DNA of 64,000 bases from NCBI RefSeq assembly GCF_029714285.1, contig NZ_CP121663.1:930001-994000 (forward strand), in the 5' to 3' direction. The position numbers were made by a program, and so were the translations under genes. Origin of the DNA: Rhizobium sp. CB3090. Lineage in GTDB: Bacteria > Pseudomonadota > Alphaproteobacteria > Rhizobiales > Rhizobiaceae. Each line of letters starts with the position of its first letter. Position 1 is the stretch's first letter. Under the pieces are notes generated by a model. It saw only the letters and a program-made list of their open reading frames with translations. It did no database searches and was not told the DNA's origin. Below are positions 10,728 to 47,263 of the stretch, one piece after another.

Positions 10728-12390
10728 TGTCACCCTCCATCTCCACCTCATAGTCGTAAGGCGGCCTATCGACGAGCGGTACGCTGTCGAAATTATGTTT
10801 TGGCGGCGGTGACGGTGTCGTCCATTCGAGCCCGGTCGCGCCCCATGGATTGTCGCCGGCGGGCGCTCCGTAACGCAGCGAATGAATGAAATAGATGAAG
10901 GGCATGAGGTAGGCGGCGCCGAGCAATGTAGCCCCGACGGAGGAGAAGACGTTCAGCACCTGAAATTCCGGCGGATAGACATGGTAGCGCCTCGGCATTC
11001 CAAGATAGCCAAGCAGAAACTGCGGGAAAAAGGTCAGGTTGAAGCCGAGAAAGATGAAAATGGCGGCCAGCCGCCCCCAGACGATCGAATACATCCGTCC
11101 GACGATCTTCGGCCACCAGTAATGCAGAGCGCCGAAGAAGGCCGACACCGTACCGCCGACCATGATGTAGTGGAAATGCGCGATGACAAAATAGGTATCA
11201 TGCACATGGACGTCGATGGCCAGCATCGCCAGCATCAGGCCGGTCAAGCCGCCGAACACGAAGAGACCGATGAAGGCCATGGCAAAGAGAAAGGGCGGAT
11301 CCAGCGAAATATGGCCCTTAAACAGCGTGGCAGTCCAGTTATAGACCTTGATGCCGGAGGGAATTGCCACCGCGATACTCAGGAACGAAAAGGCAGCGCT
11401 CGCATAGGCCGATTGCCCAGAGACGAACATATGATGTCCCCACACGAAGAAACCGAGAGCGGCAATCGCGACCGATGAGGCCGCGACGAACTGATAGCCG
11501 AAGATCGGCTTGCGTGCTCCGGCCGCCACCAGTTCGCTGATGACCCCGAGCGCGGGCAGCACCATGATGTAGACCGCCGGATGGCTGTAGAACCAGAAGA
11601 GGTGCTGGTAGAGCAGCGGATCGCCGCCAAGTGCCGGATTGAAGATGCCGAGGCCGAAAAGCCGCTCCAGCGAGATCAGCACGAGCGTAATGGAAAGGAC
11701 CGGCGTCGCCAGCACCAGGACCAATGAGGTGGCGTAGATCGACCAGACGAAGAGTGGCAACCGGCCCCAGGTCATGCCGGGGCAACGCAGCTTGTGCACG
11801 GTCACGATGAAATTCAGCCCGGTGAGGATCGAGGAAAAGCCGACGATGAAGACAGCGCTTGCCGCGAGGATGACATTGCCGTTGGCATACATGGTCGACA
11901 GCGGCGTATAGAAGGTCCAACCGGTATCGACACCGCCGGCGATCAGCACGAAGACGGTGAAGAGACCGGCAATCATGTAGATGTACCAGCTCAGGAGATT
12001 GAGTTTTGGGAAGGCGAGATCCCTGGCACCGATCATCAGCGGAAGGAGAAAATTGCCGAACGTATTGGGGATCGACGGGATCAGGAAGAACCAAACCATG
12101 ACGACTCCATGGATGGTGAAAGCACGGTTATAGCCGTCGTTGGTCAATAGATCGCCCGCGGGCGTCAGCAGATCGAGGCGGATCAGCGCCGCGGCAATCG
12201 CCCCGACGAAAAAGAAGAAGGTGATCGACAGCACATAGAGGATCGCGATGCGCTTATGGTCTGTCGTCAGCAGCCAGGATTTGAGACTATGGCCGGCGCG
12301 CAGATAGCTGACGCGTTCGGTTGCCGTTTCCGACAGGCCGCGGTCATCGAGATTGGCGGGGTTCGGGCGCTGTTCCCTGGTGATCGTCAC
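10720..12390 (-). CDS. ctaD: Cytochrome c oxidase subunit I, type A2 heme-copper oxidase
   Basis: A 556-residue catalytic subunit with 12 or so membrane helices. It carries heme a, heme a3 and CuB. Helix VI reads [15 protein letters not shown]: the His-Pro-x-Val-Tyr CuB ligand and crosslinked tyrosine are present, but the usual D-channel glutamate (HPEVY) is alanine and is preceded by Tyr-Ser. That YS pattern marks type A2 oxidases, such as the caa3 enzyme of Rhodothermus. The next ligands are in WGHHMFVSG, and [13 protein letters not shown] holds the heme histidines. The gene overlaps subunit II by four bases (ATGA). Confidence 0.95.
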
Positions 12391-36794: not shown

Positions 36795-37035
36795 CTTAAA
36801 CTCCTGGTTGTAATATGCATTTCAAAGATTCCGCACGCATGGAGGTTTATCCACCAACCCCATGCAGAATGACCTCGCATCAACGCGATCGAACAGATCT
36901 GCGATTGCCCTGCTTGATACTGACTTGAGCTCCCTCTCGTTCCGCCCAATCAGCCCCGCGACACGGCCCTGAAACGCCCTACCGATACGGCCGATGCTTC
37001 GACCGCAAGACATGTTCATGTCCTGAGCTTTATTT

Positions 37036-37056
37036 ACAAACCAACCGTATGTTTGT
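37036..37056. promoter_or_regulatory. TetR-type inverted repeat
   Basis: ACAAAC and GTTTGT are separated by nine bases (CAACCGTAT). The ACAAAC...GTTTGT layout is like operators of AcrR/TtgR-type repressors, one of which is coded about 1.5 kb away. It lies about 240 bases upstream of the porin start. No efflux gene is nearby, so the target is unclear. Confidence 0.35.
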
Positions 37057-37242
37057 CAATTATGTGAAGGTACCCTTCTCACAAGCTTCGCCCGCTGTGG
37101 CCAATATGCAACTGTCAGCTTCATCGCCGTCAGAGCACTCCGCGAAATGCGGCGGGTTGCGCATTTTACTCAACAGAATTTGGTGTCAGCGCTTACGAAT
37201 TTCAAATCGTCATAAAACGATCCAGACGCGCGATTCGGCGTC

Positions 37243-37310
37243 TAATGCATGTCGCGCAAAAGTTTGCGCCGGTTTTTGTGAGAATGACATGCAAAAACAA
37301 GGAGCTATAG
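37243..37310. repeat. Rhizobial intergenic repeat, copy 1
   Basis: It begins TAATGCATGTCGCGCAAAAG and ends ACAAGGAGCTATAGC. It matches copy 2 at 44078-44143 over most of about 65 positions. The ends GCATGTC (37247) and GACATGC (37286) are inverted repeats, so the element can fold. I recall the same sequence as a frequent intergenic repeat in Rhizobium genomes. Confidence 0.75.
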
Positions 37311-37332
37311 CATCCAGCCTTCATCATTGTGA

Positions 37333-37452
37333 AAGACAATCGCCGCGCGGCTGATCGGCGAAATCAAGCAGCTCGAGACATTTCCCGAGCAGGAGCTTTG
37401 GAAAGCCGAACTGATCGTGCGTGCCTCGACCGGCGTGGCGCCGGCCGAGTAA
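37333..37452 (+). pseudogene. C-terminal remnant of a LacI-family regulator
   Basis: An open stretch with no start codon runs to TAA at 37450. It codes TIAARLIGEIKQLETFPEQE, then LWKAELIVRASTGVAPAE. The ELIVRASTG ending and the preceding helix resemble the C-terminus of LacI/PurR-type regulators. A TGA lies just upstream in frame, and the rest of the gene is missing. It directly follows intergenic repeat copy 1, suggesting that a deletion or repeat-mediated event removed the gene. Confidence 0.5.
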
Positions 37453-37519
37453 GATGGTTTGATTGGCACAACCTGTTTGAAAGCCGCTTGATCGGTTTCG
37501 GAATTATGCGCCGACGGCT

Positions 37520-38419
37520 TCAGAATTTCGGCGGCGTCTGGCCGGCGGCACGATGGGCGGCAATGGCGGTATTGGCCATCAGCATGGCAATGGTCATCGG
37601 TCCGACGCCGCCCGGAACCGGGGTGATGGCGGCGGCAACTTCCGATGCTTCGGCAAAGGCGACATCGCCGACCAGGCGGCTCCTGCCCTCGCCGCGTTCC
37701 GGTGCGGCGATGCGGTTGATGCCGACATCGATCACCGTCGCACCCGGTTTCACCCAATCCGCCTTCACCATTTCCGGCCGGCCGACGGCCGCCACCAGAA
37801 TATCGGCGCCGCGGGCCACCGTGGCCAAGTCCTTCGTCCGCGAATGCGCCGTCGTTACCGTCGCATTGGCAGCAAGCAGCAGTTGCGCCATCGGCTTGCC
37901 GAACAGGTTGGAACGGCCGATGACGACGGCATTCAATCCCGACAGGTCCTTGCCATGGATGCGGCGCACCAAAAGCATGGCGCCGGCCGGCGTGCAGGAG
38001 ATCAGCCCGGTGGCGAAATCGCCGGTCGCCAGCTTGCCGGCATTGACGACATGCAGGCCATCGACATCCTTGTCCGGCCGGATCGACTGGATGATCGCTT
38101 CGGCATTCAGATGCTTCGGCAAAGGCAGTTGCACCAGGATGCCGTGGATGGACGCATCCTCGTTGAGGGACTGAACCAGCTTTGCGAGCTCACCTTGAGT
38201 CGTCTCGGCCGGCAGCGTGTGCTGGATGGAGGTAAAGCCGCATTCCTTGGCCATGCGGCCCTTGGCGCCGACATAGGTGTGGCTCGCCGGATCATCACCG
38301 ACGATGACAACCGCAAGGCCGGTCTTCACACCCGTGTTCTTTTCCAATACTGCGGTCGCCGTCTTCACCGCATCAATTACCGAAGCAGCCACCTGCTTGC
38401 CATCGATGATCTCAACCAT
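37520..38419 (-). CDS. folD: Methylenetetrahydrofolate dehydrogenase/cyclohydrolase FolD
   Basis: A 299-residue bifunctional enzyme converting 5,10-methylene-THF to 10-formyl-THF. Family motifs are present: [14 protein letters not shown] with the catalytic Lys, [39 protein letters not shown] for NADP binding and the C-terminal [14 protein letters not shown]. It lies three bases after purU and is the last gene of an operon led by the desaturase gene at 42895. There it would process one-carbon units released by demethylation. It may be a second, pathway-specific copy besides a chromosomal folD. Confidence 0.95.
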
Positions 38420-38422
38420 CGC

Positions 38423-39307
38423 CTACCCCATCCTCTCCGAGGCATAGCTTCCCGGGCTTGCCGGGAAGACGATGGTGCGGTTGCCGTTGAGGAAGGTGCG
38501 GTAATGGATATGGGCATGGATGGCCCGCGCCAGCACCTGGCTTTCGACATCGCGGCCGATCGACACATAGTCTTCCGCCGACTGCGCATGCGTGATGCGG
38601 GCCGTGTCCTGCTCGATGATCGGACCTTCGTCGAGATCGCCGGTGACGTAATGCGCCGTCGCGCCGATCAGCTTGACGCCGCGCTCATAGGCCTGCTTGT
38701 AGGGATTGGCGCCCTTGAAGCTCGGCAGGAAGGAATGGTGGATGTTGATGATCTTGCCCGACATCTTCTTGCACAGCGCATCCGACAGCACCTGCATGTA
38801 GCGGGCAAGCACGATCAGCTCCGTGCCGGTCTGCTCGACCAGCTCCATCAACTGGGCTTCGGCCTGCGGCTTGTTGTCCTTCGTCACCTTGATGTGGTGG
38901 AAGGGGATGTCGTGGTTGACCACCACCTTCTGGTAATCGAAATGGTTGGAGACGACGCCGACGATGTCGATCGGCAGTGCGCCGATCTTCCAGCGATAGA
39001 GCAGGTCGTTGAGGCAATGGCCGAAGCGCGACACCATCAACAGCACCTTCATGCGCTTCTGGGCATCATAGATCTCGGCATCCATCTCGAATTTCTCGGC
39101 GACCGGCTTGAAGCCTTCGACCAGCTTCTGCTGGTTGACGCCTTCCTCGGAGATGAAGGAGACGCGCATGAAGAACTTGCCGGTATCGAGATCGTCGAAC
39201 TGGCTGGAGTCGAGCAGCGTGCAGCCTTGATCGGCCAGATAATTCGCTATCGCCGCAACGATCCCACGCGTCGATTTGCAGGATACCCGTAGAACATATT
39301 GTTTCAT
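38423..39307 (-). CDS. purU: Formyltetrahydrofolate deformylase PurU
   Basis: A 294-residue enzyme that hydrolyses 10-formyl-THF to formate and THF. An N-terminal ACT domain (YVLRVSCKSTRGIVAAIANY) precedes the formyltransferase fold, with IINIHHSFLPSFKGANPYKQ and the later VTGDLDEGPIIEQD holding the catalytic Asn/His/Asp set. With folD it forms a route from methylene-THF to formate that regenerates free THF, as seen next to several demethylation systems. It lies between the panB-like gene and folD on the same strand. Confidence 0.95.
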   Translation of the reverse strand: MKQYVLRVSCKSTRGIVAAIANYLADQGCTLLDSSQFDDLDTGKFFMRVSFISEEGVNQQKLVEGFKPVAEKFEMDAEIYDAQKRMKVLLMVSRFGHCLNDLLYRWKIGALPIDIVGVVSNHFDYQKVVVNHDIPFHHIKVTKDNKPQAEAQLMELVEQTGTELIVLARYMQVLSDALCKKMSGKIINIHHSFLPSFKGANPYKQAYERGVKLIGATAHYVTGDLDEGPIIEQDTARITHAQSAEDYVSIGRDVESQVLARAIHAHIHYRTFLNGNRTIVFPASPGSYASERMG

Positions 39308-39352
39308 CTTATGTGGTCCGATTGAAAATCATGAAACGCCGCGGTTTGCCGG

Positions 39353-40162
39353 CTATCGGCCATCACCTTCGGCAAGCAGCCGGAGAAACGTCTGCAGTTC
39401 CCCTTCGTCGATTGCGACGAGATGCCCCTTTGCCGGATAGGCGCCCGAGCGAACGTCCTCGGCAAATTCCTTGAATGCGGCGGTGCGTTCATTCTGCAGC
39501 CGATCATATTCGGCGGCAAAATCGCGGTACACCTTGGCATGACGCGGCCGGTGCCCGCGATTGCTGCCAAGCACGTCGTCGGCAAATAGGTACTGAGCAT
39601 CGCATCCGCTTCCAGCGCCCATGGAAATCATCAGCATCGACGTTGCCCTGCTGATCGCGGCGGCGACATCGCCAGGCACCACCTCGATCTCGGCGGCAAA
39701 GGCGCCGGCCTCTTCCAGCGCCTTGGTCTGGCGCCAGATCTCGAAGGCGCTTGCAGCGGTCTTGCCGACAGCGCGAAAGCCACCCGTCCAGGTCGCCTTG
39801 GATGGAATAAGGCCGAGATGGCCGCAGACCGGAATGCCTTCGTCCCGCATCCGCCGGATCGTTTGCAGCCCGGCGGCGCAATAAACGGCATCGCCGCCGG
39901 CCTTCAATGCCTTAAATGCCTCGCGCATGTACTCTTCCGCCGAGACGTAATCGCCATATTCGAGCCCAGGAATGGCAAAGGGGCTCGGGGCAGCTTCGCG
40001 GAATGCCGGACCCAGCAGCGCCGGCGGCACTGACAGCATGTCGATACCGGCCTTTTCCGCTGCTTCGGCTTCCTCCAGCGAGGTGACGCGCAACATGGTG
40101 AGCTGCCGCTGTCCTTTGAGCGCCAGGAGATCGGCGACCGTTGCACGATTATGTTTCTTCAT
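39353..40162 (-). CDS. PanB-fold protein lacking ketopantoate-synthase residues
   Basis: A 269-residue protein of the ketopantoate hydroxymethyltransferase fold; GIPVCGHLGLIPSKATWTGG, followed by FRAVGKTA, and IEVVPGDVAAAIS align with PanB. Yet the residues that make PanB work look changed. The Mg-binding VGDSLG segment reads LSVPPALLG, the second Mg Asp segment (LADLPF) has no clear counterpart, and VKIEGG, with the catalytic Lys and Glu, reads AVYCAAG. Only the later Glu (IEVVP) remains. It is therefore unlikely to make ketopantoate. It sits inside an oxygenase and THF operon, so a one-carbon or aldolase-type reaction is plausible. The ATG at 40162 follows CGGAG. Confidence 0.8.
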   Translation of the reverse strand: MKKHNRATVADLLALKGQRQLTMLRVTSLEEAEAAEKAGIDMLSVPPALLGPAFREAAPSPFAIPGLEYGDYVSAEEYMREAFKALKAGGDAVYCAAGLQTIRRMRDEGIPVCGHLGLIPSKATWTGGFRAVGKTAASAFEIWRQTKALEEAGAFAAEIEVVPGDVAAAISRATSMLMISMGAGSGCDAQYLFADDVLGSNRGHRPRHAKVYRDFAAEYDRLQNERTAAFKEFAEDVRSGAYPAKGHLVAIDEGELQTFLRLLAEGDGR

Positions 40163-40187
40163 TGAAAACTCCGTAGGTATGGGCCTA

Positions 40188-41411
40188 TCACGCAGCGAGA
40201 AGCGATTTGAGTTTGACATGGCTCGCCGTCAGCGCTTCCGGATCGGGATGAGCACGCGCTGCGATCAGCATTTCGGCGAGACGGATATCGCGGGCAACGG
40301 CATTGCCGCGACCGATGCCGCTGGCTGCAAGCAACCGGCCAGCCTCATCGAGATGGAAAAGAATGAATGCGTCCTCGCCAAGGTCACGCCTCAGCATCGT
40401 CGTCGCGCCATCGGCAAGGCCGGCAATCTGCAGCGTCAGATCATATTGATCGGACCAGAACCACGGCACGGCCGAGATGCTGTTGCCTTCGCTAAGCAAG
40501 TTGGCCGCGGCCAACGTCCCCTGCTCCTGCGCGTTGCGCCAGGATTCCAGGCGAACCCGTCGCCCGCCATAAAGTGCCAGCGGAAAGGAGCAGCAATCGC
40601 CGGCGGCGTAGATATCGGCTGCAGAAGTTTCTAGCCGCTCGTTGACGGCGATGCCGTTCTCGATCGCAAGGCCCGCTTTCTCGGCAAGCGCGACGTTCGG
40701 CTGCGCCCCAATGCCGATGAGCACGAGATCGGCGGAGAGTTCCTCACCACCCGCCAGGCGGACAATCGCATTGGCTGCGCCGTCTTCGATTGACGCAATG
40801 GTCTCGCCGCAGCGGATGTCGACACCTTCGTCCCGATGGCGTTGCGCTATCACCTCGGCAACCGCCTCCGGCACACCCCGCTTCAGGACGCGCGGCAGCC
40901 CCTCGATCACGGTGACATCGGCACCGAGCTTGCGCGCCGTCGCCGCCAACTCGAGACCGATAAAGCCGCCACCGATGACAGCGATGTGCCGGCCGGGGAG
41001 AAGCGCTGGCCGCAGAGCGAGGGCATCGGCATGGGTTCGGAGCATGCGAATGCGCTCTCCCCCCGCGATGCCGGGAAAGCTGCGCGCAGATGCACCGGTC
41101 GCCAGCAACAGTTTGTCATAGCTGAGCGTCTGCCCGTCCGAGAGTGTGGCGACCTTGCCGATCGGATCAATGTCGGTTGCATGCGTGGCGAGCCGAAGGT
41201 CGATGCGCTGGTCGGCATAACGTTCCAAGACGGCCACGAACTTCGGCTCATGCGCTAGGATAAGGCCTTCTTTTGAAAGCGGCGGACGTTCATAAGGCGC
41301 AACCGGCTCGGCTCCGATCAGCGTGATGTCGCCGTCAAAGCCCTTCTCCCTGAGCGCAAAGGCGGCGCGGGCGCCGCACTCTCCTGCCCCGATAATGACG
41401 AAATGCAGCAT
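40188..41411 (-). CDS. FAD-dependent ferredoxin reductase (MocF-like)
   Basis: A 407-residue NAD(P)H:ferredoxin reductase of the rubredoxin/putidaredoxin reductase type. The FAD motif is IIGAGECGARAAFALREKG at the N-terminus, the NAD motif VIGGGFIGLELAATARKLGA near residue 150, and YAAGDCCSFPLALYGG binds FAD further on. It should pass electrons from NAD(P)H to the Rieske protein coded next to it. AGGGG precedes the ATG at 41411. Together with the Rieske and desaturase genes it matches the three-part MocD/E/F rhizopine demethylase set known from Rhizobium leguminosarum. Confidence 0.88.
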   Translation of the reverse strand: MLHFVIIGAGECGARAAFALREKGFDGDITLIGAEPVAPYERPPLSKEGLILAHEPKFVAVLERYADQRIDLRLATHATDIDPIGKVATLSDGQTLSYDKLLLATGASARSFPGIAGGERIRMLRTHADALALRPALLPGRHIAVIGGGFIGLELAATARKLGADVTVIEGLPRVLKRGVPEAVAEVIAQRHRDEGVDIRCGETIASIEDGAANAIVRLAGGEELSADLVLIGIGAQPNVALAEKAGLAIENGIAVNERLETSAADIYAAGDCCSFPLALYGGRRVRLESWRNAQEQGTLAAANLLSEGNSISAVPWFWSDQYDLTLQIAGLADGATTMLRRDLGEDAFILFHLDEAGRLLAASGIGRGNAVARDIRLAEMLIAARAHPDPEALTASHVKLKSLLAA

Positions 41412-41421
41412 GGCTTTCCCC

Positions 41422-41736
41422 TCAGACCGCAATGAAGACGGTGCCGTCTTCGACCTTGACTGGATAGGTTTTGAGATTGACGCAGACCGGGGCGCCCTTG
41501 GCTTCGCCGGTGCGATAGTCGAAGCGGCCGTTGTGCTTCGGACATTCGATGATATTGTCCATCACCAGCCCGTCGGCGAGATGGACCTGCTCGTGCGTGC
41601 AAAGACCGTCGGTGGCAAAATAGTCGTCTTCCGGGCTGCGATAGACGGCGAAGGTTCTGCCGCCATGGTCGAAGCGCAGGACGTCCTCCTCGTCGATCGC
41701 ATCCGCCGCACAGACCCTGATCCAGTTGCCGCTCAT
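41422..41736 (-). CDS. Rieske [2Fe-2S] ferredoxin (MocE-like)
   Basis: A 104-residue soluble Rieske protein. The cluster ligands are Cys46 and His48 in LCTHEQVHLADG and Cys65 and His68 in CPKHNGRFDYRTGEA. It belongs to the small electron carriers of oxygenase systems. It should carry electrons from the FAD reductase (10 bases downstream) to the desaturase-like oxygenase (about 70 bases upstream). Confidence 0.93.
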   Translation of the reverse strand: MSGNWIRVCAADAIDEEDVLRFDHGGRTFAVYRSPEDDYFATDGLCTHEQVHLADGLVMDNIIECPKHNGRFDYRTGEAKGAPVCVNLKTYPVKVEDGTVFIAV

Positions 41737-41809
41737 TCCTGCCTCCCTGTATATGCCGTTGTATGTGCCGTTCCTGGCTGTTGTTATCGTTTGCTGTTCT
41801 TGCCTGTCG

Positions 41810-42895
41810 TTATTGCGCTGCTTCGGCCAGCGTATTGTGGAATTCCTCGCGATAGGGCCGCGCCGTCGGCGGCAATTCCCGCTTCAGGAAATAATCTTCA
41901 TTGCGCAACTGCCGCAGGAAGGCCGGGATCATTTCGCGGTAGCCCGACCAGATCGAGGGATTGGGCTTCGGCAGATCGTGTTTGATCATCGCATGCAGCT
42001 TCGGCAGCGCATGATAAGGCACCATCGGGAACATGTGGTGTTCGACATGGTAGTTCATGTTCCAATAGATGAAGCGGCTGATCGGGTTCATCAGCACCGT
42101 GCGGCTGTTCAGCCGGTGGTCGGTGACATTGTCGGCCAAGCCGCCATGCTGCAGCAGGCCGGTCAAGACATGATGCCAGGCGCCATAAAGCCGTGGCAGG
42201 CCGATCAGCACCAGCGGCAGGAGCGAACCCATATAAAAAGCGGCGGCGATGGTGGCGACATAGATCGCCAGCCAGATGCGGGCGATGCGGATCGCCTTCG
42301 GCTGCTCCTGTTCGGGAATGAAGGTCTTCTCAGCGGCGCTGACGATGCCGAAGGCATTGCGGATCATGTCGAGCATCGCATGGAAGACATCGACGATGCC
42401 GAAGAAGTTCAGGACGAGCCGCAATAGATCCGGCGGCCGCATGACGGCGATCTCCGGATCGCGGCCGACGATGACGGTGTCGGTGTGGTGGCGGGTATGG
42501 CTCCAGCGCCAGGTCACCGGATTGCGCATGATCATGAAGCAGGCGATCTGATAGACCGCATCGTTCATCCAGCGGGTCTTGAACGCCGTGCCGTGGCCGC
42601 ATTCATGCCAGCGGCTGTCGGAGGCCGAACCGTAAAGCACGCCATACGCCAGGAAGAAGGGGATGGATAGCCAGGAGCCCCAGAAAGCGATGCCGAGGCC
42701 GGCCAAGACCGCCATGCTGCCGAGCCAGACGATCGTGTCGCGGATGGCGGCCTTGTCGGAGCGCTGCATCAGCGCCTTCATCTCCTTGCGGGCAATGTCG
42801 GTATGATACCACTCGGCCGCCGCCAGCCCGGTTTCGACCGCCTGCCGGCTGCTCGGGCCGAGCAGGCTGTAATCGCGCTTGATGATCTCGGTCAT
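41810..42895 (-). CDS. Fatty-acid-desaturase-like di-iron oxygenase (MocD-like)
   Basis: A 361-residue integral membrane di-iron enzyme. Its three histidine boxes are HECGHG, SHTRHHTD and YHVEHHMFP, with membrane helices between them (about 55-90 and 205-240). Although the fold is that of fatty-acid desaturases and alkane hydroxylases, this arrangement with a Rieske ferredoxin and reductase is that of MocD, reported to act in demethylation of 3-O-methyl-scyllo-inosamine. The folD and purU genes downstream fit release of a one-carbon unit. Substrate cannot be read from sequence. GGAGG lies upstream of the ATG. It is read away from the LacI regulator across a palindromic operator. Confidence 0.87.
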   Translation of the reverse strand: MTEIIKRDYSLLGPSSRQAVETGLAAAEWYHTDIARKEMKALMQRSDKAAIRDTIVWLGSMAVLAGLGIAFWGSWLSIPFFLAYGVLYGSASDSRWHECGHGTAFKTRWMNDAVYQIACFMIMRNPVTWRWSHTRHHTDTVIVGRDPEIAVMRPPDLLRLVLNFFGIVDVFHAMLDMIRNAFGIVSAAEKTFIPEQEQPKAIRIARIWLAIYVATIAAAFYMGSLLPLVLIGLPRLYGAWHHVLTGLLQHGGLADNVTDHRLNSRTVLMNPISRFIYWNMNYHVEHHMFPMVPYHALPKLHAMIKHDLPKPNPSIWSGYREMIPAFLRQLRNEDYFLKRELPPTARPYREEFHNTLAEAAQ

Positions 42896-42985
42896 TGCTG
42901 TTCCTGCCTCCCGCGATGCGCAAGTGCCGCACCGCCTCAGATGTCAGCAGGATAGGTCGAGTTTTCGCTTGCCTCAATGCGGCAA

Positions 42986-43010
42986 TGATGGAATCTATCA
43001 TATTCCATCA
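42986..43010. promoter_or_regulatory. Palindromic operator in the divergent region
   Basis: TGATGGAAT and ATTCCATCA form a perfect 9-bp inverted repeat with seven bases between. It lies between the desaturase operon and the LacI gene. The same half-site recurs at 43028, 44179 and 45233, making it a strong candidate for the binding site of the LacI protein coded at 43052. Confidence 0.7.
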
Positions 43011-43027
43011 ATCCTCCATCTCATTCA

Positions 43028-43036
43028 TGATGGAAT
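43028..43036. promoter_or_regulatory. Additional operator half-site
   Basis: TGATGGAAT, 16 bases before the LacI start codon; an extra copy of the half-site in the palindrome at 42986-43010. Confidence 0.55.
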
Positions 43037-43051
43037 ACCTCAGGACCAACC

Positions 43052-44080
43052 ATGCGCCGACCAACCATTTCCGATCTCGCAAAAGCATCCGGCGTCAGCG
43101 TTGCAACCATCGATCGCGTACTGAACGGGCGGCATCGCGTACGCGAAGAGACGGCCAGGCGTGTCTACGAGGCAGCGCAATCGATCGGCTACCATGCGGT
43201 TGGCTTGCTGCGACAGCGCGTTTTTGAGGATCTGCCGCAATACCGATTGGGCTTCCTGCTGCAGAAACCATTCCAACCCTTCTATCAGTCTTTTGCCAAG
43301 GAGATCGGCGCGGCTTCACAGACAGTCGCAACCGCGCGCGTCCATACGCAGATCGATTTCGTCACCGCGTCGACACCGACGGCAATCGTCGAAAAGCTGA
43401 AAGCCATGGCGGCGCGGAACCAGGCGATCGCCCTAGTCGCCCCCGATTATCCCGCGGTGACAACGGCGGTGGAGGAGCTGAAGGATAAAGGCATTCCGGT
43501 CTTTTCGCTGCTGTCCGATTTCGCGGCAAATGTGCGCGAAACCTATGTCGGCGTCGATAACCGCAAGGTCGGGCGCACCGCTGCCTGGACGATCGCGAGA
43601 TCCGCCCATCGTCGAGGCAAGGTCGCCTGCTTCGTCGGAAGCCATCGCTTTCATGGCCATGAACTGCGCGAGATCGGCTTTCGCTCCTATTTTCGCGAGA
43701 ATGCTCCCGATTTCGAGGTGCTGGATACGCTGATCAATCTGGACACTGCGGAAATCACCCATGAGGCGACGCTCAACCTTTTACAGAAACATCCCGATCT
43801 CATTGGCTTTTATGTCTGCGGCGGCGGCATGGAAGGCGCGATTTCCGCCATTCGCGAAGAAGGGCTTGCCGGCAAACTGACCGTCGTCGTCAATGAACTG
43901 ACACCGGAATCGAAGGCCGCACTCGCCGACGATGTCGTCACCATGGTCATCGGCACCCCTCTTCCTTCGCTCTGCAAGGAGCTGTTCGGCTTGATGATCG
44001 ATGCCATCGAACGCGGCGAGGCGGCAATGCCGGGACAATCCTTCCTGCCCTTCGACATTTTCGTCTCGGAGAACATTTAA
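43052..44080 (+). CDS. LacI-family transcriptional regulator of the demethylation locus
   Basis: A 342-residue LacI-type regulator. The HTH reads TISDLAKASGVSVATIDRVL, with the hinge NGRHRVREETARRV following. The effector domain is of the periplasmic-binding type (LGFLLQKPFQPFYQSFAKE and YVGVDNRKVGRTAAW). It is divergent from the desaturase operon and 260 bases ahead of the isomerase gene. Repeated TGATGGAAT sites in both control regions suggest that it governs both. An inositol-like ligand would fit the neighbours. The intergenic repeat copy 2 begins at its stop codon. Confidence 0.9.
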   Translation: MRRPTISDLAKASGVSVATIDRVLNGRHRVREETARRVYEAAQSIGYHAVGLLRQRVFEDLPQYRLGFLLQKPFQPFYQSFAKEIGAASQTVATARVHTQIDFVTASTPTAIVEKLKAMAARNQAIALVAPDYPAVTTAVEELKDKGIPVFSLLSDFAANVRETYVGVDNRKVGRTAAWTIARSAHRRGKVACFVGSHRFHGHELREIGFRSYFRENAPDFEVLDTLINLDTAEITHEATLNLLQKHPDLIGFYVCGGGMEGAISAIREEGLAGKLTVVVNELTPESKAALADDVVTMVIGTPLPSLCKELFGLMIDAIERGEAAMPGQSFLPFDIFVSENI

Positions 44081-44143
44081 TGCATGTCGCGCAAAAGTGT
44101 GCAGCGGTTTTGTGAAAACGACATGCACAAACAAGGAGCGTGG
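44078..44143. repeat. Rhizobial intergenic repeat, copy 2
   Basis: It starts at the TAA stop of the LacI gene (TAATGCATGTCGCGCAAAAG) and ends near ACAAGGAGCGTGGGAGC. TGCATGTCG (44081-44089) and CGACATGCA (44119-44127) form a perfect 9-bp inverted repeat. It closely matches copy 1 at 37243-37310. It may act as a 3' hairpin for the LacI message. Confidence 0.75.
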
Positions 44144-44175
44144 GAGCGAATCTGAAAGATCGCGACGAGCTTTAG

Positions 44176-44197
44176 CGGTGATGGAATCACATCACCG
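44176..44197. promoter_or_regulatory. Operator upstream of the isomerase gene
   Basis: CGGTGATG and CATCACCG are a perfect 8-bp inverted repeat with a 6-base spacer. It includes a copy of TGATGGAAT (44179-44187), the same half-site found in front of the desaturase operon. Confidence 0.6.
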
Positions 44198-44340
44198 TGG
44201 GCGATATTTCTATCATGGATGATGGAAGAGGCCGGCGCTTGCCTGTGGATCGGCAGCCTAATTCTCGCTAGTCATTCGCAAATGTGCACAGCCGATCAAC
44301 ATCCCGTTGGGCCGGCCGCTAAGAGGAGGAATGCCCCGCG

Positions 44341-45153
44341 ATGAGTTCCATTCGTTTCGCGCTCAATCACATGTGTACCCCGGCCCTGAGCCTGGAATCA
44401 TTCTTCGCCGCAGCTAAAAGTCTCGGCATCGACAGCGTCGAAATCCGCAATGATTTGGCCGGCAATGCGATCCTGGACGGCACGCCGGCGGCAGCGGTCA
44501 AGGAGCTCGCAGCGCGTTATGGGCTGACGATCATTTCGATCAACGCACTGCAGCGTTTCAACGAGTGGAATGAAGCGCGCGCCAAGGAGGCGGCGGAACT
44601 CATCGGTTACGCGCGGGATTGCGGTGCAAAGGCGCTGGTGCTCGTTCCCGTCAATGACGGTAGCGGCCGCGAGCCGGAGGTGCGCAAGCAGAACCTCGTA
44701 ACGGCGTTGACGGCGCTGAAGCCGATGCTGGATGCCGCCGGGATCATTGGCCTCGTGGAACCGCTTGGCTTCGAGATCTGCTCGTTGCGCTCGAAGACCG
44801 AAGCCGCCGCTGCGATCGAAAAGCTCGGCGCGCAATCGACCTTCCGCCTTGTTCACGACACCTTCCATCATCATCTCGCCGGCGAGGCAGCGACTTTCCC
44901 TGATCTCACGGGCTTGGTCCACATCTCCGGTGTCAGCGATGCCGCCGTGTCCGTTTCCGATATGCGCGATCCGCATCGCGTTCTGGTCGACGCCAACGAC
45001 CGCCTCGACAATGCCGGACAGATGCGGGCGCTGCTGTCAGCCGGCTATACCGGCCCCTTCTCCTTTGAGCCCTTTGCGCCGGAGGTGCATGCGCTGAAGG
45101 AGCCCATTGAGGCGCTGAAGGAAAGCATGGCATACCTGACTGCGCATGTTTGA
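44341..45153 (+). CDS. TIM-barrel sugar isomerase, 2-keto-myo-inositol isomerase-like
   Basis: A 270-residue xylose-isomerase-like TIM barrel. The segments SVEIRNDLAG, IISINALQRFNEWN and AKALVLVPVNDG, with RLVHDTFHHHLAGE and FSFEPFAPEVH, follow the pattern of IolI, which isomerises 2-keto-myo-inositol. Metal ligands are likely Glu142 (LVEPLGFE region), Asp and His in HDTFHHH, and the late Glu. It supports an inositol-type substrate for the locus. GAGGAGG lies upstream of the ATG. A palindrome with the locus-specific half-site precedes it, and a very strong hairpin follows. Confidence 0.82.
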   Translation: MSSIRFALNHMCTPALSLESFFAAAKSLGIDSVEIRNDLAGNAILDGTPAAAVKELAARYGLTIISINALQRFNEWNEARAKEAAELIGYARDCGAKALVLVPVNDGSGREPEVRKQNLVTALTALKPMLDAAGIIGLVEPLGFEICSLRSKTEAAAAIEKLGAQSTFRLVHDTFHHHLAGEAATFPDLTGLVHISGVSDAAVSVSDMRDPHRVLVDANDRLDNAGQMRALLSAGYTGPFSFEPFAPEVHALKEPIEALKESMAYLTAHV

Positions 45154-45158
45154 CAAAT

Positions 45159-45196
45159 GATTGACCAACGAGACCACCAAGTCTCGTTGGTCAATC
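45159..45196. terminator. 16-bp hairpin between isomerase and cobM genes
   Basis: GATTGACCAACGAGAC and GTCTCGTTGGTCAATC pair perfectly around CACCAA. It lies five bases after the isomerase stop and between convergent genes, so it likely terminates from both sides. Confidence 0.8.
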
Positions 45197-45232
45197 GTGC
45201 AAGTACTGCTGATGACTATGCCAGCCGCGCTC

Positions 45233-45241
45233 TGATGGAAT
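45233..45241. promoter_or_regulatory. TGATGGAAT motif downstream of the isomerase gene
   Basis: The fifth copy of the locus half-site, between the isomerase terminator and the cobM stop. No start codon is nearby, so its role is unclear; it may be an auxiliary operator for looping. Confidence 0.35.
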
Positions 45242-45255
45242 GATAGCGCCGCCCA

Positions 45256-46014
45256 TTATTCTCTGCCCCGGAAGCGACGCTGGTAGGCGGGATCGTAGAG
45301 CGAGCTTTCGCGGAAATCGCTGGCGGCAAGCGACGGGCCGACGAAGATCAGTGCTGTGCGCTCGATCGGCTCGGCCGCCACCTTTGCCTCGACCGTGCCG
45401 AGCGTAGCCTGGAGAATGCGCTCATCCGGCCAGGAGGCCTTTACGACGATCGCGACCGGGCAATCCGCACCGTAAAGCGGTGTCAACTCCTCGACCGCTT
45501 GCCCGAGCGCATGGATCGCCAAGTGAATGGCGAGTGTCGCGCCCGTGGCGCCGAACTTTTCCAGGCTTTCATTGTTCGGCATCGGCGAGGCGCGGCCGGA
45601 GACGCGGGTGAGCACAAGGCTTTGCGCGACTGCTGGTATGGTCAGCTCACGCCCGAGGGCGGATGCGGCTGCTGCAAAGGACGGAACACCCGGGGTCAAG
45701 GTATAGGCAATTCCGTGTTTTTCCAGACGGCGGATCTGCTCGGCAACGGCGCTCCAGACAGAGAGGTCTCCGGAATGCAGGCGGGCGACATCCTCGCCGG
45801 ATGCGGCGGCTTTCAGATATTCGGCCTCGATCTCATCCAGCGACATCGGCGCGGTATCAATGATACGGGCGCCGGGCGGGCAATATTGCAGGAGTTCCGG
45901 CGAGACGATCGAGCCTGCATAGAGGCACACCTGGCATTTGCCGATCAGGTCTCTGCCGCGCACGGTGATCAAATCCGCAGCCCCCGGCCCTGCCCCGATG
46001 AAATGAACCGTCAT
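45256..46014 (-). CDS. cobM: Precorrin-4 C11-methyltransferase CobM
   Basis: A 252-residue SAM-dependent methyltransferase that methylates C-11 of precorrin-4. Signature segments are [20 protein letters not shown] at the start, [32 protein letters not shown] and [20 protein letters not shown]. It is the last gene of the minus-strand cob run, 16 bases after cobL. Confidence 0.95.
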
Positions 46015-46030
46015 TCCGCTACCTCGTTTT

Positions 46031-47263
46031 TCATTCTGATGGTTTGACCCAGGACCATTGTGTCACCGGCATCGCAGGTCGCCAGCCGGTCATCGTGCCG
46101 ACGGGTGCCGCGCGGACAATATCGATACGGATCAGCGAGCCGCCACCCCGCGCGTGTTCTGCAAGCAAAACAGCTTCCATTTCGGTCGTCACCGCATTGG
46201 CAACAAGCCGCCCGCCTGCCTTCAATCCGGCAATGGCCGCCTCCATGACGCCCGCATCGCTGCCGCCGCCACCAATGAAGATCGCGTCCGGTGCCGGCAG
46301 ACCGGCAACAGCATGGGGCGCCTGTCCTTCGACGACGCTGAGCCCTGGAACACCGAAACTTGCGGCATTGCGGCGGATGCGGGCCACACGCTCGCTGGAG
46401 GATTCGATGGCGATGGCCCGCATCGAAGGATGAGCCAGCATCCATTCGATGCCGATGGAGCCGGAACCGGCGCCGATATCCCACAGCAATTCACCCTGAC
46501 GCGGCGCCAGCGCCGACAGCGTCAAGGCGCGGATTTCGCGTTTGGTGATCTGGCCGTCATGCTCGAACAGGCTATCGTCCAGCCCGGCGCTGAGCGGCAG
46601 GATGCGAGCACCTTCACTTGCCGCCACTTCGATGCCGCAAACATTCAGATCATTGATGCCGGAGAGTGCGAACTCGGCTGCCCGCTGCGTCGAAACACGT
46701 TCATATGGCCCGCCGAGGGCTTCGAGAACGGTCAGCGTCGATTGACCGAACCCCGTCTTCTGCAACAGGCGCGCCAGATCGGCGGGACCTTGGTCATCCG
46801 AAGTCAGGGCCAAAATTTTTCGGCCCGGATGAAGATGCGGGCGGATGAGGTCCAGCGGCCGGCCATGCAGGGAAAGAACGGTTACGTCCTGCAGCGGCCA
46901 GCCGAGGCGCGATGCGGCAAGGCTGAAGGAAGAAGGAGCCGGAATGACGGCCATTTCGGATGCAGGAACATGCCGCGAGAGCGTTGCGCCGACCCCGTAG
47001 TAAAAGGGATCGCCGGACGCGAGGACGACGGTCGGCATTCCGCGCCGGGCCAGCACGGCTTCGATGGATTTCTCGAAAGGGCTCAGCCAGCTATGCGCCT
47101 CGCCCTCGACCAGAGTGTGTACCAGTTCGATATGACGCGTCCCGCCGAAGACGACAGGCGCCGCAGCAATCAGCCGTTTGGCATCGTCGCCAAGCCCGGC
47201 TGGACCGTCTTCGCCGATGCCGATAAGAGTGAGCCAGCGATGAGGGGAAGGTATTTCAGACAT
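46031..47263 (-). CDS. cobL: Precorrin-6Y C5,15-methyltransferase (decarboxylating) CobL
   Basis: A 410-residue two-domain enzyme. The N-terminal half is a tetrapyrrole methylase ([36 protein letters not shown]). The C-terminal half is a SAM-binding decarboxylating methyltransferase ([31 protein letters not shown]). It adds methyl groups at C-5 and C-15 and removes the acetate carboxyl at C-12. The likely ATG at 47263 overlaps the divergent cobK start by two bases; a GTG at 47296 is an alternative. A frame on the opposite strand is long but spurious. Confidence 0.94.

Follow-up and report, generated by a model that had tools for sequence, protein, structure and literature searches.

A 64,000-nucleotide stretch of the genome of Rhizobium sp. 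CB3090, referred to here as the window (C2:930001-994000 of a 6.49-Mb, four-contig genome labeled G000), contains a locus that probably encodes a LacI-controlled module for the oxidative O-demethylation of a methylated cyclitol. Our first guess for the substrate is D-pinitol (3-O-methyl-D-chiro-inositol), followed by ononitol or a related compound. The locus is a sister type of the rhizopine module in which LacI replaces MocR, and it most likely serves methylated inositols. One operon encodes a MocD-like membrane di-iron oxygenase, a MocE-like ferredoxin, a MocF-like flavin adenine dinucleotide (FAD) reductase, a relative of PanB that we call PanBL, PurU, and FolD; a LacI-family gene is divergent from it, and a TIM-barrel gene lies beyond (Table 1). 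This arrangement had been proposed in an original prediction made from the sequence alone, and all eight genes were recovered in place, with families that agree. Demethylation loci of this kind matter because legumes are rich in methylated inositols such as pinitol, and this one would also tell where rhizopine catabolism got its demethylase.

We infer the substrate, the direction of flow, and the PanBL reaction of the following scheme. The MocF-like reductase would pass electrons from NAD(P)H via the MocE-like ferredoxin to the MocD-like oxygenase, which would hydroxylate the O-methyl group. The resulting hydroxymethyl ether would give free inositol and a one-carbon unit at the level of formaldehyde. 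PanBL may transfer this unit onto tetrahydrofolate (THF), FolD would oxidize the methylene-THF to 10-formyl-THF, and PurU would release formate and THF from the latter. The TIM-barrel protein, together with IolG and IolE encoded elsewhere, would feed the inositol into the iol pathway.

A MocDEF-Type Oxygenase System

The order of the genes for the PF00487 oxygenase, the ferredoxin, and the FAD reductase is that of the MocDEF system, and the earlier assignment of the set to the MocDEF type held. The window ferredoxin passed the curated cut-off of the MocE family (TIGR02377; Table 1), and MocD shared 80% identity with its counterpart in the MocR-type locus of R. leguminosarum A1 plasmid pRLa11. 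The box histidines of MocD were invariant across 24 aligned homologues. MocD scored 32.2 bits against the model of the arginine hydroxylase GntB (cut-off, 380 bits), and no solved structure matched it at E 10 beyond two unrelated rows.

The same genome holds a second copy of mocD and mocE with their promoter (C2:548026-549679; L045 10203-11676), 99% identical over 1,654 bp to window positions 41419-43072. This copy has no mocF or panBL within its 20-kb stretch, and a flavin mononucleotide reductase-like gene comes after it. At C2:455-462 kb (L046 9655-15834), an FA_hydroxylase-family protein is encoded with MocE, MocF, LacI, a sugar-binding protein, and a TIM-barrel-like protein that scored under the Pfam cut-off. 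This cluster is a parallel system in the same genome.

Conservation of the Module

Three sets of loci were compared. Set A comprised 39 loci (L054-L092), the 42 places with MocD minus two of the CB3090 genome and G009. Set B comprised the best 80 (L103-L182) of at least 436 PanBL relatives found by scanning GTDB genomes with the PanBL alignment, and it leans to Rhizobiaceae. Set C was class-wide and comprised 33 loci (L232-L264): 23 loci that covered 24 of 35 places and 10 places chosen as not beside a known MocD. The three sets are not independent samples, and neither are related loci.

In set B, in which the loci were chosen by PanBL, mocD, mocE, and mocF were each found in 76 of the 80 loci and all three in 75, so the gene arrangement is not due to chance. 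Matches to the LacI-family protein were present in 71 of the 80 and to the TIM-barrel protein in 61; a MocR-like protein was present in 2. Both mocD and mocE were absent from L117, L118, L168, and L180, and mocF from L118, L168, L172, and L180; L180 starts at a contig end. Two of these loci kept one-carbon genes without mocDEF: L118 retained panBL-purU-folD, and in L168, from a metagenome-assembled genome of a beta-proteobacterium, panBL adjoins purU. Across the order, 32 of 199 genomes have MocD at E 1e-40 or better. Laboratory strains carry the module too: it corresponds to RL_RS32880 to RL_RS32905 in R. johnstonii 3841, where RL_RS32895 is the mocD-like gene and RL_RS32880 is panBL. In S. 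meliloti 1021 it corresponds to SM_b20817-20820, which the accessible part of PMC11387232 names.

A PanB Relative Without the Canonical Catalytic Residues

PanBL is the most interesting part of the locus. Public records label it a pantothenate enzyme, and its score against the PanB equivalog model was under the cut-off (TIGR00222, 112.5 versus 207.55 bits). The genome holds a full canonical PanB at C1:1918234, which scored 352.6 bits over profile positions 1-258; PanBL scored 142.9 bits over positions 71-258 in the same genome search. D45, D84, K112, and E114 are what we take to be the catalytic residues of Escherichia coli PanB, in numbering and roles. All 21 canonical rows examined (the PanB of CB3090 plus the lower-scoring PanB match of 20 genomes) had D, D, K, and E at these columns. 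Among 118 near PanBL rows, the residue was kept in 2 at D45, around which the alignment is uncertain, and in none at D84, K112, or E114, and all 118 had Y at the K112 column. Residues aligned to H136 and E181 are kept in both canonical PanB and PanBL, and W125, E158, H208, and R226 were invariant in all 118 near rows. The near rows were 105 of at least 240 residues from sets A and B, L041-L044, and the window (L090 was 40% identical to the window protein and the others more than 50%), plus 13 from set C with 45% identity or more. The 18 more distant rows of set C were less uniform, keeping D45 in 4, D84 in 1, and K112 in 3.

PanBL also keeps company with a second oxygenase family. In set C it occurred with an oxygenase of the MocD type in 7 loci and of the FA_hydroxylase type (PF04116) in 7, L240 having both, and with MocE but neither oxygenase in 2 of the 33 (L234 and L255). 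When set C rows were limited to those with 45% identity or more, 11 of 13 stood with MocD, FA_hydroxylase, or MocE. The loss of the four residues, the separate panB of the genome, and the second oxygenase family led us to reject the possibility that PanBL is a ketopantoate hydroxymethyltransferase. That PanBL is common to two oxygenase families suggests that it works on their shared product, the one-carbon unit, and PanBL, for which the original prediction named no role, is more constant in the system than purU and folD. We propose that PanBL may carry out a one-carbon transfer to THF. Methylene-THF is in spontaneous equilibrium with THF and formaldehyde (accessible part of PMC4814558), and thus an enzyme would presumably speed or channel this step. 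A PanB-type search matched 5,347 of 8,000 scored candidates at E 1e-10, a count in which canonical PanB and PanBL are not separated. Because PanBL carries a pantothenate annotation despite the lost canonical residues, some members of a large family may bear the wrong name.

Two small genomes (1.4 Mb; G+C content of the stretches, 0.30 and 0.32) carry a mocD-like/panBL pair with no recognized mocE in the stretch (L235 and L236); judged by size and G+C content, these genomes may be SAR11-like. In L090 a creatinase/M24-peptidase-like gene (10995-12290) sits between mocE and the distant PanBL, a hint of another substrate, possibly a nitrogen-methyl compound.

Operator-Like Repeats

The gap between mocD and lacI contains two inverted repeats, and further half-sites precede the TIM-barrel gene (Table 1). 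The putative LacI operator repeats are TGATGGAA/TTCCATCA repeats. Elsewhere in the window, single half-sites lie at 43280, 44863, and 45233. Half-sites of the form TTCYATCA/TGATRGAA were found in the lacI-mocD gap of 62 of 88 LacI-type loci (1.0 of 88 after shuffling), with a density of 5.9 per kb in these gaps versus 0.18 per kb in whole loci. This enrichment is partly by construction because the motif was derived from those gaps; the lacI-TIM gap and upstream controls are a fairer test. In the lacI-TIM gap, half-sites were present in 36 of 58 loci (0.55 of 58 after shuffling). The 200-bp stretches upstream of mocE, mocF, panBL, purU, cobK, cobM, and nadA had them in 2 of 412 cases, and 1 of 34 binding-protein genes of the relatives had one upstream. 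In the whole genome, the 25-base operator pattern occurred without mismatch at this locus and the second mocDE copy only; six more places matched with 2-3 mismatches, and the reversed control gave none. We predict that this LacI protein controls the mocD operon.

An Optional One-Carbon Tail

The original prediction described one-carbon recovery as built into the locus. One-carbon genes are indeed part of the operon. However, purU was present in 25 of the 80 set B loci (downstream and co-oriented in 24, divergent in L168) and folD in 7, some in pieces or at contig ends, so recovery is an option and not a constant of the system. The purU-mabO-folD genes of nicotine breakdown form a known demethylation operon (accessible part of PMC3891541). 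The CB3090 genome encodes five PurU proteins that score over the cut-off. Of the four outside the window, one is encoded next to a DAO-GCV_T fusion in a stretch that also holds a Rieske oxygenase; a second has a GCV_T protein in its stretch; and a third adjoins glutamine-synthetase-like and glutamate-synthase-like genes. The fourth (L048) had no such neighbor among the genes looked at.

Copies at C2:311920 and C1:3758955 match the purU DNA (window 38425-39322) with 98% and 97% identity, respectively, and one at C1:262429 matches the folD DNA (window 37342-38407) with 97% identity. The likeness ends about at the gene borders, which looks like gene conversion or recent copying.

Inositol Genes and the Predicted Substrate

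Lack of any association with inositol genes in other genomes had been named as grounds for abandoning the proposal, and such an association was found in several lineages. IolG proteins above the 355-bit cut-off are encoded beside the module in L056 (425 bits), L166 (409 bits), and L260 (433 bits). With tblastn at 55% identity or more, iolG was detected in 12 of the 152 loci (set A, 6/39; set B, 4/80; set C, 2/33) and in none of 8 other stretches of the CB3090 genome. We estimate that the 152 loci, which cover about 2.5 Mb, would hold at most one iolG at one or two copies per 5-Mb genome, a figure to be read with the nonindependence of related loci in mind. In L166, L172, L179, and L180, iolG is directly behind panBL, and L232 carries mocD, mocE, panBL, iolG, and iolB. 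The stretch of L234 has mocE, panBL, and purU with IolC (719 bits; cut-off, 600), IolD (909 bits; cut-off, 715), and IolB (331 bits; cut-off, 205) and no recognized oxygenase. The CB3090 genome encodes IolG at C1:2291819 (421 bits) and IolE at C1:719399 (371 bits; cut-off, 290).

Legumes and their nodules are rich in pinitol and ononitol (accessible part of PMC8730688). According to the accessible part of PMC5789663, pinitol is the component of Mimosa pudica root exudate with the highest concentration (145 uM), and in this exudate the mocDEF homologues of R. mesoamericanum STM3625 were up 1.5-2.1 fold and a transporter with a mocB homologue 4-4.7 fold; iol genes were up too. We read this response as a hint of pinitol as the substrate. 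A literature search that left most subscription journals outside its reach found no account of bacterial pinitol demethylation or of rhizobial methyl removal.

Relationship to Rhizopine Catabolism

The genes mocRABCDEF have been described as the rhizopine catabolic set, with the mocD promoter induced about 93-fold by rhizopine (accessible part of PMC10107442, which makes no mention of genes behind mocF). On pRLa11, a gene of the pyridoxal phosphate-aminotransferase family, which was taken for mocR, is followed by mocD, mocE, mocF, panBL, purU, and folD-like pieces. Nearby are iolE, two Gfo/Idh/MocA genes, sugar-transport genes, a DegT aminotransferase gene and an MFS transporter gene, which we take to be mosB and mosC, and nif genes. 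This gene content suggests that the pRLa11 locus is a rhizopine locus. The MocB-like protein beside its mocR had no match to the curated rhizopine binding-protein model at E 1e-10. The same gene set recurs in R. leguminosarum Vaf-46 (L169) and in R. bangladeshense (L170), again with folD in short pieces; Vaf-46 carries both types, L113 and L169.

The locus in the window had been suspected of differing from a classical rhizopine locus, and the comparison bears this out. There is no MocR-type regulator beside mocD; a LacI-family protein occupies that place. None of 28 matches of the IolG/MocA-type model falls in the window, and the single one of 14 MocB-like matches that does so is 24% identical and located at 56.2 kb, so no mocA- or mocB-like gene stands beside the locus. 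The mocC gene, which was not itself searched for, presumably belongs to the same broad Pfam family as the TIM-barrel gene. A MocD tree of 117 rows was built by a quick method with a midpoint root, and 35 of its 114 inner branches were open. In it, the MocR-type rows, three in number, formed one clade without the window (support, 100). This clade joined a 36-row group of mostly LacI types (group support, 96) that includes the window, with support of 86, not starred. Rhizopine-type MocD therefore looks like an offshoot of the more common LacI type. The nearest MocD to that of the window, its own second copy aside, was that of Rhizobium leucaenae USDA 9039.

Alternative Explanations

Several observations weigh against demethylation of a methylated cyclitol as the function of the locus. 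A PanBL-level match (E 1e-45 or better, anywhere in the genome) was found in 20 of the 32 genomes with MocD and in none of the other 12. In set C, 18 of the 33 PanBL loci, mostly with distant PanBL, lacked MocD, FA_hydroxylase, and MocE, a MocD-less share that is raised by the 10 places picked for not adjoining a known MocD. Just 12 of the 152 loci have iolG, and none stands beside the window. No sugar transporter is adjacent to the operon, the nearest MocB-like protein being that at C1:3373598. The best binding-protein match of pRLa11 to the curated rhizopine binding-protein model (two tested) was 138 bits against a cut-off of 420. The rise of mocDEF in Mimosa exudate was just 1.5-2.1 fold and was interpreted by the authors as rhizopine catabolism (accessible part of PMC5789663). 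The family must also act on compounds other than inositols, since L-arabinonate-dehydratase, DHDPS, DUF4432, or other Gfo/Idh genes accompany some relatives.

This company raises the possibility that the methyl group is removed from a sugar or sugar acid instead of an inositol. Farther relatives of MocD are found with such genes (Gfo/Idh oxidoreductases, DUF4432, DHDPS-like, L-arabinonate-dehydratase) and with sugar ABC transporters, but the four nearer relatives with iolG directly behind panBL and the joining of the MocR-type clade to the window's group make this improbable. We consider it highly unlikely that the locus serves the catabolism of rhizopine (3-O-methyl-scyllo-inosamine) proper and has become separated from its mocABC genes. 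The 80% identity of MocD to that of a MocR-type locus would fit, as would the reading of the exudate response in PMC5789663, as far as accessible, and the genome's best MocB-like protein (C1:3373598), which is encoded with an ATPase and a permease and is 75% identical to that of the MocR-type L169. However, MocR is replaced by LacI, MocR-type MocD is a separate clade, both types occur in Vaf-46, and LacI outnumbers MocR-like proteins 71 to 2 in set B, though its loci were picked by closeness to the window PanBL. With no mocA- or mocB-like neighbor either, this candidate was rejected for the window. Least probable of all, with hardly any credence, is that MocEF serve a MocD that desaturates or hydroxylates lipids and that the neighbors of MocD are unrelated. 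MocD belongs to PF00487 and is labeled a fatty acid desaturase in public records, but it reached neither lipid-desaturase model (DesB, 39.7 bits; DesA, 19.4 bits; cut-offs, 500), and its company of PanBL, LacI, and TIM barrel is steady, with sugar transporters in part of the loci. A place of the oxygenase among true lipid desaturases had been the other ground named for abandoning the proposal; on the model scores, a weak test, a lipid desaturase is disfavored.

The role of PanBL is a separate matter. PanBL might be, for instance, an aldolase or isomerase of the cyclitol product, while PurU and FolD handle formaldehyde that is bound to folate spontaneously. The lost canonical residues and the invariant residues of its own are compatible with this possibility, which we consider somewhat unlikely. 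The two Pfam oxygenase families that PanBL accompanies argue against it, and panBL beside purU without mocDEF in L118 and L168 is more readily reconciled with work on the one-carbon unit than with work on the backbone. A more far-reaching and doubtful proposal, a shade less probable still, is that PanBL is a new THF-dependent enzyme that accepts the hydroxymethyl group directly from what the oxygenase produces, with no free formaldehyde, as an adaptor for two membrane di-iron oxygenase families (MocD and FA_hydroxylase), and that the LacI-type pinitol/ononitol module is the source of the demethylase of rhizopine catabolism.

Gene Calls and Other Features of the Locus

Table 1. Genes and operator-like sites of the locus (positions in the window)
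Feature	Position	Strand	Supporting details
mocD-like membrane di-iron oxygenase, FA_desaturase family	41810..42895	-	PF00487, 139.9 bits; His boxes HECGH, HTRHH, HVEHH
mocE-like Rieske-type 2Fe-2S ferredoxin	41422..41736	-	TIGR02377 (MocE family), 184.9 bits; cut-off, 136.15
mocF-like FAD ferredoxin reductase	40188..41411	-	PF07992 (Pyr_redox_2), 238.8 bits; PF14759 (Reductase_C), 75.6 bits
PanBL (PanB relative)	39353..40162	-	PF02548, 151.8 bits, profile positions 71-258 only
purU, 10-formyl-THF deformylase	38423..39307	-	TIGR00655, 332.8 bits; cut-off, 285.95
folD, methylene-THF dehydrogenase/cyclohydrolase	37520..38419	-	NF010785, 492.3 bits; cut-off, 396
LacI-family regulator, divergent	43052..44080	+	PF00356, 46.9 bits; PF13407 (Peripla_BP_4), 125.2 bits
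TIM-barrel sugar/inosose isomerase-like protein	44341..45153	+	PF01261 (AP_endonuc_2), 103.5 bits
Operator-like inverted repeats, mocD-lacI gap	42986..43037		TGATGGAAT-N7-ATTCCATCA (42986-43010) and TATTCCATCA-N17-TGATGGAATA (43001-43037)
Three further operator half-sites ahead of the TIM-barrel gene	44179..44227		At 44179, 44208, and 44220

The PanB relative begins at 40162 and the reductase at 41411, which refines the original prediction. From these coordinates, the gaps along the operon are 73 bp (mocD-mocE), 10 bp (mocE-mocF), 25 bp (mocF-panBL), 45 bp (panBL-purU), and 3 bp (purU-folD). The TIM-barrel protein had been described as an IolI-like isomerase. This label is loose: the protein's top solved relatives were 2q02 and 4hgx (159.3 bits each), versus 31.3 bits for Bacillus subtilis IolI (1i60). 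No Rfam family was found in 36800-46100. Between lacI and the TIM-barrel gene lies a repeat about 100 bp long (about 44076-44176), also without an Rfam match. When 40 of 277 candidates were scored, it recurred with 79-97% identity at no fewer than 28 other genomic places, including two partial ones.

Comparison with Known Systems

Rieske and P450 O-demethylases, which act on vanillate, guaiacol, and 6-O-methylgalactose, hydroxylate an O-methyl group that is then lost as formaldehyde. They belong to other oxygenase families, whereas the window oxygenase is a membrane His-box di-iron protein. PanBL shares PF02548 with canonical PanB, as well as the residues aligned to H136 and E181, but it lacks those aligned to D45, D84, K112, and E114, matches the profile over positions 71-258 only, and coexists with a separate panB. 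The purU-mabO-folD operon likewise links demethylation with FolD and PurU, which process the one-carbon unit that is set free. Its demethylase is an oxidase for an N-methyl group, whereas the window is predicted to encode an O-demethylating di-iron oxygenase, and the accessible part of PMC3891541 names no PanB relative in that operon.

The likeness to MocDEF of rhizopine catabolism in R. leguminosarum and S. meliloti L5-30 is an oxygenase, a MocE-family ferredoxin, and an FAD reductase in one operon, and the pRLa11 locus shares the panBL-purU-folD tail with the window, with folD in pieces on pRLa11. The window differs in having LacI instead of MocR, no adjoining mocA- or mocB-like gene, and a MocD outside the MocR clade. 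It differs further in that its TIM-barrel gene stands behind the same operator-like repeats as mocD.

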